From contig OZ024823.1 in assembly GCA_964016985.1 (NCBI GenBank), positions 131,584,112-131,648,111 on the forward strand: a stretch of DNA of 64,000 nucleotides, given 5' to 3'. Shown piece after piece: positions 39,333 to 51,389 of the stretch. The position numbers and the translations under genes are program-made. This DNA is from Anodontia alba. Taxonomy: Eukaryota > Mollusca > Bivalvia > Lucinida > Lucinidae. The notes beneath the pieces were generated by a model. It did not search any database. It was not told where the DNA came from and was given only the letters and a program-made list of their open reading frames with translations. Within the stretch, counting starts at the first letter, position 1. Every line of letters begins with the position of its first letter.

Positions 39333-39366
39333 ATAAATTATTGTATGTTACTGTGATTATCTGTTA

Positions 39367-39490
39367 CGTTCCGGGTCGTTTCGGTCCAGAGTCGTTTCGG
39401 CCCTGAGTCGTTTCGGCCCTGGGTTGTTTCGGCCTGAGTCGTTTCGGCCCTGGGTCGTTTCGGCCAATTTCGATGGGTCGTTTCGGCCTG
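39367..39490. repeat. Left inverted repeat of the 3.08 kb element
   Basis: About six imperfect 16-20 bp units of the type GGGTCGTTTCGGCCCT, mirrored by 42313-42447. Confidence 0.92.
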
Positions 39491-39759
39491 ATTTTTTTAA
39501 GTACCCCTTGGTTACGAATGATAGATAGAAAAATCATTTGGTTGTTTAATGAAGAGTCTAGTGATGTCAAAGGCATTTTTTTAAAGTCCCTCCAGGTTAG
39601 GGATGATAGATAGAACAATCATTTGACTGTTTGATGACGAGTCTGTGGGTATCATAGGTCTTGGTTGATAGGGTATATCCTTTTAAGCCTGTTTTGTCTC
39701 GGATATCCTTTGTTATTTATCTAGCATTAAAATTAACTTTCTATAGAAAATAAGGCTTA

Positions 39760-39806
39760 ACATTTCATGTGAATCGTATGTCTAGCAAACGATTCACATG
39801 AAATGT
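39760..39806. repeat. Perfect 18 bp inverted repeat inside the element
   Basis: Arms ACATTTCATGTGAATCGT (39760-39777) and its exact complement (39789-39806), separated by 11 bases. It lies near the zinc-finger fragment. Function unknown. Confidence 0.9.
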
Positions 39807-39823
39807 CCAATTTTATAAGAGAT

Positions 39824-40066
39824 TTACATCAGTAAATGCGCAACACAGTCTAATTGTAATTTGATTACAGCATCTAACAATTCTGTATGCTGGCTACAGA
39901 CATCGCAGATCATTGCATATTTACGATCTTCCACAGGAGAATTACAAGCAATGCACAACTCAGACATTATTTTAGAAGAACCTTTTGCAATCACAGAAAA
40001 TTCAAAGATGAATGATTCGAAGTGTTTTTTTTTCAGATTTTTAACGCTACCAGGCACCTGAGGCAC
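39824..40066 (-). pseudogene. Zinc-finger fragment, possibly Mutator-like transposase N-terminus
   Basis: An 80-codon frame whose middle reads MSELCIACNSPVEDRKYAMI then CDVCSQ. The CxxC...CDxC spacing is like the PHD-like zinc module that precedes animal Mutator-like transposases. The second half of the finger and the catalytic domain are absent. The start is uncertain because the first 33 residues have no recognisable content. Confidence 0.45.
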
Positions 40067-40297
40067 AAAGAGGCAGCGCCAGAGAAATCTGGATTAGTTT
40101 AACCCTGACCTTGGCTTAAAACGGTGTGCACGCATAATTCATGCATATACTACCTCGCCTGATCGTACGATATCGAACGATATACATGAAGGTCAAGGTC
40201 TGTAAGTTACACAATTTAGACGGTCAAAAGAAAAGGGCTTTAATACGTGTGTATTACTTATGCACAATATAATACTACACTCGCCCTACATGTCAGG

Positions 40298-40313
40298 GGC
40301 TCTGAAAAGAGCC
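40298..40313 (-). terminator. Histone-type mRNA 3' stem-loop
   Basis: On the minus strand GGCTCTTTTCAGAGCC, six base pairs and a four-base loop, which satisfies every position of the replication-dependent histone consensus GGYYCTTYTYAGRGCC-type stem-loop. It begins 14 nt after the TAG of the 332-codon gene. Flanks differ from typical histone genes, and I see no clear purine-rich downstream element for U7 snRNA. Confidence 0.75.
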
Positions 40314-40327
40314 AGGGATACCTGGAG

Positions 40328-41326
40328 CTAGGGTCCCAGCCTCGCTAACCTCTTGGAGTGGTCTGTACCGGCACAACATCTTTCCAGGTCGTCGTACCAA
40401 AGCATGTTGTTATCGACTGGAGTGGCCCTTGCGAACTTCTCCTGGATGTCATCGAAGAACCTCTTCGAGAAGTACTTTGAAGAGTAGCCCTTCAGAAAAT
40501 ACCAAATAGGCTGTTCTTCGATGTATGTGAAGTACACAGGGGCCTCTTCGGTGGTACTTCCATCTTCGTCTGGTAGCCGGTACGCCCCGATGATGGTTCC
40601 TTGTTTGCCGTTAACCAAACGAAGTGTCCTCAATTCGTCCAAGTCATACTTTTCATGAATGGGGTATGACTTGCCACAGCCAGAAAGAAAACATTCGCCC
40701 TCTTCCTGTTTCGATTTCTGTGTTGGCAACGGCATGGAGGCTGGAACTGGAGTCGGTGCTGGAGCTGGAGCAGTTGGAGAGGTTCTCGGCGCAGTCGTCC
40801 GTTGAATCTTCCTATGCTGCTCCAGGGGTGGAGTCCTTCTCCGCTCCATAGGAGGAGCCCTTCTCCTCAGTGGTGCTGGCGATTCTTTCTTCGGGGTTGA
40901 CGCTCGTAGAATCTTCTTCTTCTTCTTTGAGACTACTTCCTTCCACTCCCCCGGAGGAGAGCGGTCAGTTGTAGTCTCTAGGTCGGTGGCGGTAGTTGGA
41001 GTACTAGGTCTCTCTTGTTGTTGTGGCGCCCTCCTTTCCTCCGTCGTCGGCGACGGTGTCAAACACACCGCATCGTTGAAGGAGGCGGCCAATCTCGGTG
41101 GCGTGGGCGCCGCCATCTTGGGTACCGCCATCTTGACACGAGCGTCGTCTTGTTTAGCAGATGTCTTGTTGGTTGGTTTCCTCTGAGGTGATGTTCGGGG
41201 AAGCTGCCAAGTTATCTCTAACTTGACAATGTGCTTCCCCTCCGTCAGCCGCCAGATAGGTCTGCCGACGATAGGCAACCTGCCTATCGCCAGCGCGCAA
41301 ACTTCTGGAACTAAAATGTTTTCCAT
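40328..41326 (-). CDS. Intronless 332-residue protein of unknown function
   Basis: An intact frame from ATG 41326 to TAG 40328, by far the longest in the window and richer in GC than its surroundings. Residues 1-45 (MENILVPEVCALAIGRLPIV to ITWQL) look folded. About 46-215 are low-complexity, rich in Pro, Thr, Arg and Lys, with a KKKKK run that could be a nuclear signal. About 215-332 again look folded, with ECFLSGCGKSYPIHEKYDLD, PVYFTYIEEQPIWYFLKGYS and LWYDDLERCC. I recognise no family. A CCAAT box, a TATA box and a histone-type stem-loop frame it, so expression linked to DNA replication is a reasonable guess. It sits inside a transposon, so it may be element-encoded or captured host sequence. 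Confidence 0.7.
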   Translation of the reverse strand: MENILVPEVCALAIGRLPIVGRPIWRLTEGKHIVKLEITWQLPRTSPQRKPTNKTSAKQDDARVKMAVPKMAAPTPPRLAASFNDAVCLTPSPTTEERRAPQQQERPSTPTTATDLETTTDRSPPGEWKEVVSKKKKKILRASTPKKESPAPLRRRAPPMERRRTPPLEQHRKIQRTTAPRTSPTAPAPAPTPVPASMPLPTQKSKQEEGECFLSGCGKSYPIHEKYDLDELRTLRLVNGKQGTIIGAYRLPDEDGSTTEEAPVYFTYIEEQPIWYFLKGYSSKYFSKRFFDDIQEKFARATPVDNNMLWYDDLERCCAGTDHSKRLARLGP

Positions 41327-41377
41327 CGTCTTCGAAGGTTAAGTTGAGACTTGTGATTCGAAGTTGTGTGAGCTTCA

Positions 41378-41386
41378 CTTTAAATA
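41378..41386 (-). promoter_or_regulatory. TATA box of the 332-residue gene
   Basis: TATTTAAAG on the minus strand, ending about 52 bases before the ATG at 41326, which would place the transcript start about 25 bases upstream of the ATG. Short leaders of this kind are usual for histone genes. Confidence 0.6.
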
Positions 41387-41412
41387 CGCTTCTGTCGGCA
41401 TTTAAAAGTAAA

Positions 41413-41417
41413 ATTGG
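41413..41417 (-). promoter_or_regulatory. CCAAT box of the 332-residue gene
   Basis: CCAAT on the minus strand, about 30 bases upstream of the TATA box. The spacing is typical of histone promoters, but the five-base word alone is weak. Confidence 0.45.
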
Positions 41418-41658
41418 CCTAACATTCTTGTGCGCCATTAAAATTGTTGTATCTTTAAGGACTGTCCGCCGGCCTTTCGCCGACAAAGTCACATGTCAAA
41501 CAAACCATATTTAATTAACACGCACGAGTTTTCACACTTCAATTAATCGATTAATACCTGGATTATCGCAAAGGATTAAAGACTAACTATAATTGGCCCA
41601 AAATTTCCCACCTTGATAAATCGATTACCAAATATCAAAACAAACATAATTAATCAAT

Positions 41659-41937
41659 CATCACGAAAACATGGCTATATAATTTTGACCCCACTTATAA
41701 ACCCCACTTTTATATAGTAATACTGGGGTTTACAGGGGTATACATTATTTTTCTTACTTTTGCTCAAAAGCATAAAGTATGGGTACTCGTTAGAACTGCC
41801 TCGCCGAGGTTCTAACGAGTACCCACAATCTATGTTTTGAGCACAAATATGAAAAATACCAGATTTTTTTATCTGAAAATTTTTAGCTTTTGGAGGTGAA
41901 ATTTTCCATATATTTGAATAGGCGTGTTTTCGTAATG
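41659..41937 (-). mobile_element. Family A palindromic element, copy 6, in the 3.08 kb element
   Basis: Reverse orientation, start CATCACGAAAACATGG, end GCGTGTTTTCGTAATG. One hairpin arm has lost bases near the apex (CCTCGCCGAGGTTC), so its stem is shorter than in the other copies. Confidence 0.88.
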
Positions 41938-41989
41938 AACTTTTAATTAATACTTTAATCAATTAAATCAAGGACGAAATGTCTGTCTG

Positions 41990-42066
41990 GCTGGCTACCT
42001 GTCTATGTATCTATCTATCTGCCTGTCTGTCTGTCTGTCTGTCTGTCTGCCTGCCTGCCTGCCTAC

Positions 42067-42120
<54 letters not shown>

Positions 42121-42150
42121 GTCTGTCTGTCTGTCTGTCTGTCTGTCGGC

Positions 42151-42215
<65 letters not shown>

Positions 42216-42245
42216 ATGCTGTGTCCATCTATCTATCTTTCTGTC
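41990..42245. repeat. CTAT / CTGT / CTGC compound microsatellite
   Basis: Blocks of CTGT, CTGC, CTAT, CTGT and CTAT over about 250 bp. The two overlapping 86-100 residue Leu/Ser/Tyr-repeat frames are its translation. Confidence 0.98.
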
Positions 42246-42312
42246 CATCTCAACATTTACTTTAACCCCCCAAAATATTAACCCATGCTTATATATACCC
42301 TACCATATTGAA

Positions 42313-42447
42313 ATTGGGCCGAACTGACTCAGGGCCGAAACGACCCAGGGCCGCAATGACCCACCTACCAAGGCCGAAACGACCCACCCCTAAAATTGGC
42401 CGAAACGACCCGGCCGAATCGACCCAGGGCCGAAACGACCCGGAACC
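42313..42447. repeat. Right inverted repeat of the 3.08 kb element
   Basis: Imperfect units of the type AGGGCCGAAACGACCC, the inverse of the left end, closing with CGAAACGACCCGGAACC next to ATCTGTTA. Confidence 0.92.
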
Positions 42448-42499
42448 ATCTGTTATATATATAGTACATGTTAAAAGCAGATTGTGCAGTGGTTCAGTT

Positions 42500-50381: not shown

Positions 50382-51389
50382 TGTTACGACCGAGCACTCC
50401 TACCTTCGATTATTTGCCTTGGCAGATTACGCATAGCTTCTAAGTATATATTCAATCTCTGACAACTGCGTCAGGGAGTCGACTCTTTGGCTCAGTGGTT
50501 AGAGCATTGGATTTTTTAACAGGGAGGACCGGGTTCATCCTTGAAGAGGGGGAGTGTTACGACCGAGCACTCCTACCTTCGATTATCTGCCTTGGCAAAT
50601 TACGCATAGCTTCTAAGTATATATACAATCTCTGACAACTGCGTCAGGGAGTCGACTCTTTGGCTCAGTGGTTAGAGCATTGGATTTTTAACCGGGAGGA
50701 CCCGGGTTCGATTCCCAGGAAAGACGGAATATTTTTTCAGCTATGCTTCATTCCTTTGTTACGACTTTCATGTCGTAAGATGGGGGCTTGTCCGCGAACG
50801 GACTTAATACGCCGAAAATGGCTTCACGTCATCATAAATGATGACTTCCTTGAAAAGGGGGAGTGTTACGACCGAGCACTCCTACCTTCGATTATTTGCC
50901 TTGGCAGATTACGCATAGCTTCTAAGTATATATTCAATCTCTGACAACTGCGTCAGGGAGTCGACTCTTTGGCTCAGTGGTTAGAGCATTGGATTTTTAA
51001 CCGGGAGGACCGGGTTCGATTCCCAGGAAAAACGGAATATTTTTTCAGCTATGCTTCATTCCTTTGTTACGGCTTTCATGTCGTAAGACTATGTTTTGAT
51101 CAGAAATATGAAAAAATATCAGAGTTTTTTTATCTAAAAATTTCCGGTTTTTGGAGGTGAAATTTTCAATATACGAATATTTGAATAGGCGTGTTTTCGT
51201 AATGGGCTAGCCCAAATACAGATACTATTGTAAATACAAGGTATGATGTATTCATATCGACAAAGTGTCTACAATAACGCTTATTGTTCTATGGTCAGTA
51301 TTTTAAACGCTGAATATTGCCTGGTCTGTAAAAGGAACTTTTACATAGATTCACGTGGTCTTAGTACAGTATTCCCAATCAGGTTTTAA

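Follow-up and report, generated by a model that had tools for sequence, protein, structure and literature searches.

The stretch of Anodontia alba DNA analysed here as a whole, referred to as the window, is 64 kb long. On its minus strand, positions 40298-40313 read GGCTCTTTTCAGAGCC, which fits the core consensus of the histone stem-loop. The consensus GGYYYTTYTNARRRCC has one match in the window, versus a mean of 0.05 expected from 100 shuffled versions, five of which contained a match. There are 92 perfect hairpins of six base pairs and a four-nucleotide loop on the two strands of the window, and only the one at 40298-40313 fits the consensus. The 36-nt stretch that holds it folds with unremarkable energy (z = -1.50; 17 of 200 shuffles were equally stable). 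The Rfam model Histone3 (RF00032) scores the hairpin at 17.5 bits, below the gathering score of 34, because the core matches the model and the flanks do not.

A 332-aa open reading frame (40328-41326, minus strand), with its stop codon at 40330-40328, precedes the hairpin by 14 nt; it has no Pfam family and 53 homologous proteins. Both are part of a non-LTR retroposon copy of about 1.33 kb (40025-41351, minus strand), delimited as the unit common to all copies and running from AGTCTCAAC to an A-run. The part behind the hairpin forms a 3' module (40030-40297, minus strand), the last 74 nt of which (40103-40030) are common to other families. An 11-bp target duplication, ACTTCGAATCA, flanks the element, with its 5' copy at 41354-41364 and its 3' copy at 40013-40023 (both read on the minus strand).

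This retroposon is in turn found inside an inverted-repeat transposon (39367-42447) with GGCCGAAACGACCC(A) arrays at both ends and an 8-bp target duplication, ATCTGTTA, at 39359-39366 and 42448-42455. Inverted termini made of repeat arrays, together with a target duplication of 8-9 bp (8 bp here), make the outer element Mutator/Foldback-like; no transposase reading frame was seen in this copy. Upstream of the retroposon, and within the outer element, are a TATA-like box, TATTTAAAG (41378-41386, minus strand), which ends up 35 nt before the retroposon, and in the window copy a CCAAT box (41413-41417, minus strand). The nesting places both boxes in the outer element and outside the retroposon that bears the reading frame. 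The sequence-only reading had described a histone gene layout, and promoter boxes, short leader, intronless reading frame and hairpin do follow one another in histone order, but the two boxes are part of the outer transposon. Likewise, the gene it called transposon-borne is mobile, but as the gene of a retroposon nested within the inverted-repeat transposon. Assignment of the hairpin to the outer transposon itself was considered and rejected, as nothing but the 1.33-kb unit is common to the copies found elsewhere; the exception is locus L031, where the outer transposon is present again around the retroposon.

Two other repeats of the window may be recorded. A palindromic repeat of about 280 bp is present inside the outer transposon at 41658-41938, and other parts of the window hold at least 10 nearly complete copies of it. 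A tRNA-like sequence occurs at 50654-50726, within a tandem duplication of period 482.

Copies and relatives of the retroposon

The assembly from which the window comes (1.86 Gb) contains at least 146 matches to the 332-aa protein, fragments counted separately. Seventy loci were examined, made up of 30 and a further 40 picked as longer matches; L042-L047, L049 and L050, whose flanks agree, do not count as independent. The unit common to the 70 loci starts with AGTCTCAAC, some 25 nt ahead of the ATG; at its other end stands GCGTTAAAAATCTG, followed by an A-run or short tandem repeats. Shared end strings of at least 8 nt, taken as target duplications, were located by script at 41 of the 70; the script missed the 11-nt ACTTCGAATCA of the window. 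Target duplications and a fixed 3' end with an A-run or short repeats are characteristic of non-LTR retroposons. The hairpin and its gene are carried by a 1.33-kb non-LTR element that has a single reading frame and lacks reverse transcriptase.

Known retroposons that are non-autonomous and have their tail in common with a LINE include SINEs and ORF1-only LINE derivatives such as HAL1. The present element resembles them in its target duplications, in its fixed ends with short tandem repeats on the 3' side, in a tail common to several families and in its single reading frame lacking reverse transcriptase. It differs from them in the hairpin that follows its stop codon at a long distance from the 3' end, and in its frequent insertion behind TATA boxes.

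Nothing identifies the 332-aa protein as a histone, since Pfam yields no family at E values up to 1. Searches of PDB sequences and searches by fold gave no match, and no relatives were found among phages and viral contigs. The structure model is reliable only over the part that starts near residue 221. Among the 53 homologous proteins, tested where they read past the stop, three were compatible with the hairpin versus 0.18 expected, a count now superseded by the DNA. A fourth, P0019, is partly compatible; P0037 also reads past the stop and, by eye, has no hairpin. A second protein search added three proteins, with no new read-through among those examined. At the other end of the gene, a AAGATGGC-type motif, which we take to be YY1-like, is present about 200 nt from the 5' end of the reading frame in 70/70 loci; it encodes ..KMA...

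The retroposon tail is more widespread than the gene. A 20-nt tail motif has 611 occurrences in the genome, versus none for the reversed control. Among 20 tail copies away from matches to the reading frame, the hairpin is present in three (L078, L081 and L090), and L071 is like a hairpin-less lineage described below; most others share merely the last 70-100 nt or so. Upstream of three tail copies a sister family was found twice and nothing once, and no reverse transcriptase, hence no partner LINE, was seen in those three stretches. The protein of these sister retroposons (L091, 3720-4568; L092, 3695-4495; both plus strand) has 23% identity with the 332-aa protein (E = 2e-20, for one of the two copies). 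Its reading frame is followed by tandem GGGTGAGGACACCC hairpins, two of which are changed on both sides to GAGTG/CACTC. Hairpins thus occupy the slot behind the stop codon in both families.

Conservation of the hairpin

A perfect six-pair consensus hairpin is found behind the stop codon in 57 of the 70 loci, L013 and L033 included. One or two changes are seen in nine (L006, L007, L009, L015, L041, L045, L046, L053 and L068), and the hairpin is absent from four (L048, L065, L067 and L069). The last four are alike and so form a single hairpin-less lineage, which L071, not one of the 70, resembles. In group A (L001-L030) the hairpin is GGCTCTTTTCAGAGCC, and in group B it is GGCCCTTTTCAGGGCC. Variants shared by several copies (T-A/C-G in pair four; TTTTTA and TTCTCA in the loop) hit free positions of the histone consensus, and the guanine of the second pair is invariant in 67/67 aligned loci. 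The sequence-only reading had described a perfect histone-type stem-loop, had called a chance match unlikely, and had suggested looking for the stem-loop behind homologues of the 332-residue protein. It is indeed there in most of them, and the observation is confirmed in a stronger form than first stated.

Identity between groups A and B was determined leaving aside the hairpin-less lineage, L003, L013 and L033. The two groups are 85% identical in the hairpin, 29-40% in the 60 nt before it, 62-67% in the 40 nt behind it, and 76-87% in the rest of the 3' module. For the reading frame, comparison of L001 with seven group-B copies gives dS of 1.38-1.69 and dN/dS of 0.32-0.36; with L067, where the hairpin has been lost, dS is 2.64 and dN/dS 0.21, and with L059 dS is unusable. 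The comparison shows the hairpin to be under selection, because it keeps 85% identity at a dS of about 1.4-1.7 while the preceding 60 nt fall to 29-40%. Pair counting over 67 loci (33 distinct rows) shows 86.9% of cells paired. Double-sided exchanges are seen at one of the six pairs, in 10 cells, a number reached in 0/500 shuffles; the covariation score of the alignment is matched by 44/500 shuffles. Covariation is therefore modest support for the hairpin, and conservation between diverged groups the stronger one. A pair-breaking change common to L045 and L046 speaks against strict constraint.

Landing sites behind TATA boxes

TATA-like boxes were first noticed within the final 30 nt of flanking sequence and tested afterwards, on 63 flanks of 440 nt clustered to 45 independent targets. 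A strict TATAWAW box is present at -42 to -25 in 12 of the 45 targets, while other 18-nt windows of the same flanks have a mean of 0.96 and a maximum of 3. The binomial P of 1.3e-10 is optimistic, since the test window was set after a partial view of the data. The reverse strand of the same -42 to -25 window gives 6. By group, strict boxes occur at 3/24 targets in A and 9/21 in B. With a weight matrix, a score of at least 5 is reached at -35 to -16 in 32 of 56 flanks, and in four farther bins in 6, 3, 1 and 13. A strict TATA box is lacking in many copies, but the peak at -38 to -29 is sharp. Often, and more commonly than by chance, the retroposon is inserted 25-40 nt behind a TATA box. The copy in the window, with TATTTAAAG at -35, is one such case, and the TATA box reported by the sequence-only reading can be explained by this preference. 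Among the titles listed by a literature search, none concerned a non-LTR element that lands behind TATA boxes.

The flanks indicate that some targets are hit repeatedly. For example, the outer transposon carries retroposons of different groups (A and B) in the window (at 41351) and in L031 (near 467), both at the same first-nick site; the flanks of the two outer-transposon copies are mostly 85-97% identical.

A landing preference of this kind would supply each copy with a ready promoter. It is rather doubtful that the retroposon goes so far as to rebuild a histone-type gene on landing, sense-oriented at a TATA start site, with its own stem-loop and with S-phase expression via SLBP. If true, mobile-element expression would be tied to S phase and the histone-mRNA pathway would be used by mobile elements.

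Histone processing signals and the role of the hairpin

In the available portions of two papers, no metazoan mRNAs are said to be known that end in a stem-loop instead of poly(A) except the replication-dependent histone mRNAs (PMC6303110, PMC10388802). According to the part of the latter that is available, the minimal SLBP site at wild-type affinity includes two adenines on the 5' side of the hairpin and one on the 3' side, and SLBP requires the guanine of the second pair (PMC10388802). Cleavage of histone mRNA is directed by U7 on the downstream element, or HDE, as given in the available part of another paper (PMC7026596).

The host reference for these signals was one histone unit, L119, with genes for H2B, H2A, H1 and H3. 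Its hairpins, GGCCCTTTTTAGGGCC and GGTCCTTTTCAGGACC, obey the same consensus as those of the retroposon, and GGCCCTTTTTAGGGCC itself recurs at 3/63 retroposon sites. In L119, AA precedes the hairpin in 4/4 genes, A follows it in 4/4, and a GAAAG-type downstream element is present in 3/4. The 63 perfect retroposon sites, from 78 loci, have AA before the hairpin in 0/63 and A behind it in 2/63. The U7-complementary element that the sequence-only reading proposed to look for was not borne out: an HDE-like pattern, composed after the histones and the other hairpin genes had been inspected, occurs at 1/63 retroposon sites versus 3/4 host histone genes. The retroposon thus resembles a replication-dependent histone mRNA 3' end (RF00032) in its 16-nt core and in the place of that core, a short way past the end of an intronless reading frame. 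It is unlike one in lacking adenine flanks, in lacking the downstream element in nearly all copies, in encoding no histone, and in its Rfam score (17.5 versus 34). Because adenine flanks and downstream element are missing, U7-type cleavage of the retroposon transcript is unlikely, and SLBP binding to its hairpin, given the absent adenines, is probably weaker than on histone mRNA.

The reading preferred here, with a rough probability of 0.42, is that the hairpin recruits SLBP for translation of the retroposon mRNA. It is favoured because the family adheres to the histone consensus. The retroposon would land behind a TATA box and be transcribed from the promoter at the landing site; its hairpin would bind SLBP, probably less strongly than histone mRNA does; the complex would serve translation without U7 cleavage; and the element would be mobilised by a LINE with the same tail. 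Support comes from the consensus fit in 57/70 loci, the shared variants at free positions, the conservation between groups, the invariant guanine, the consensus common to host histone genes and retroposon, with one host hairpin recurring in some copies, and the TATA boxes upstream. Against it stand the absent adenine flanks, the near-absence of an HDE-like element, covariation at one of six pairs only, the different hairpins of the sister family, the one lineage that lost the hairpin, the broken pair of L045 and L046, and the low Rfam score.

The main rival, tentative but quite possible, is that the hairpin serves recognition by the element itself: the encoded protein or a partner reverse transcriptase would select its own RNA, and the likeness to histone mRNA would reflect convergence, or else descent with no role for SLBP. 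The paired changes in the GGGTGAGGACACCC hairpins that a family with a related protein carries in the same slot fit such a signal, as does the absence of the histone adenines. However, pairing alone would permit many hairpins, whereas the family stays within the histone consensus, loop included; and with about 270 nt between it and the 3' end, the hairpin is not in the 74-nt tail common to several families.

The mechanism put forward by the sequence-only reading is supported in part; full histone-type processing, as it proposed, is improbable. U7 and SLBP would then cleave a few nucleotides behind the hairpin to give a non-polyadenylated S-phase mRNA, with uncut transcripts as templates for retroposition. 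The core is perfect and in the right place, host histone genes have hairpin and downstream element together, and the complete set of signals is found in other genes of this genome, including a pogo-like transposase, but adenine flanks and downstream element are missing at nearly all 63 retroposon sites. The unit ends at the hairpin in 0/70 loci and nearly all extend about 270 nt beyond it; at least the retroposed RNA was therefore left uncut at that point.

It is scarcely probable that the hairpin is a relic of a captured histone 3' end, kept as part of a structured 3' domain read by reverse transcriptase. The 3' module is conserved too, at 76-87% between groups beyond the first 40 nt, and folds better than shuffled sequences (z = -3.22), yet the flanks of the hairpin vary freely while the hairpin does not, and the sister family and the lost lineage retain the tail without this hairpin. 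A chance match without significance, to which the five matching shuffled windows and the ordinary folding energy might point, is ruled out by conservation between deeply diverged groups in 57/70 loci.

A literature search, with most subscription journals outside its scope, found as the only histone hairpin in transposons that of Tm1-HH, a noncoding Mutator/Foldback-type element of root-knot nematodes (PMC3169594). As far as the available part of that paper goes, Tm1-HH is also a transposable element with a histone hairpin and conserved sequence after it, and its composite inverted repeats resemble those of the outer element in the window. Tm1-HH is a noncoding DNA transposon, however, whereas the hairpin described here moves with a coding retroposon and not with the outer element. 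In contrast to the nematode case, where selection on the hairpin is left open in the part available (PMC3169594), the comparison between groups gives a positive answer here, for another element.

Other genes in this genome carry histone-type hairpins as well. The string GGCYCTTTTCARRGCC occurs 176 times, versus once for the reversed control. One hundred of these places were listed, and 20 sites away from matches to the reading frame were chosen; 5 of the 20 were retroposon, 14 other genes or repeats and 1 neither. The stem is perfect at 11 of the 14 other sites, L107, L110 and L111 being omitted for an imperfect stem, and all three histone-type features are present there, a result with some circularity as regards the HDE pattern. 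Inspected by eye, the peptides ahead of these hairpins are not core histones.

Pfam was run on L114, L116 and L117. L114 (1403-243 and 342-4, minus strand) is a pogo/Tigger-like transposase gene (DDE_1, CENP-B_N). In L114, L101, L104 and L113, the C-terminus ..EDEDFEGFD is followed by the hairpin, AACAAA and CACGAAAGAAAACC; in L114, transposase and C-terminus are in different frames. This complete histone-type 3' end is found at five places in the genome, three exact and two with one mismatch. As in the retroposon, a non-histone gene precedes a histone-type hairpin; unlike the retroposon, this DNA transposon, which is not related to it, also has the flanking adenines and the downstream element. 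The histone-only statement becomes directly testable with a coding retroposon whose hairpin is under selection and a transposase gene that has a whole histone-type 3' end. If these hairpins act as in histone mRNA, stem-loop mRNAs would not be confined to histones.

Two small families of genes were also noted. An intronless gene family of about 115 aa (L116, 3129-3473, plus strand; L094; L095) has no Pfam match and 10 protein homologues with E no higher than 0.01, and is followed by a hairpin with adenine flanks. Its stems are perfect in L094 and L095 and have one mismatch in L107, which is the site behind L116. In the second family (..RCPACG..; L096, L097, L100, L102 and L103), the hairpin is followed by ACCA or ACTT and then by a CGATTGAAATAACC-like sequence.
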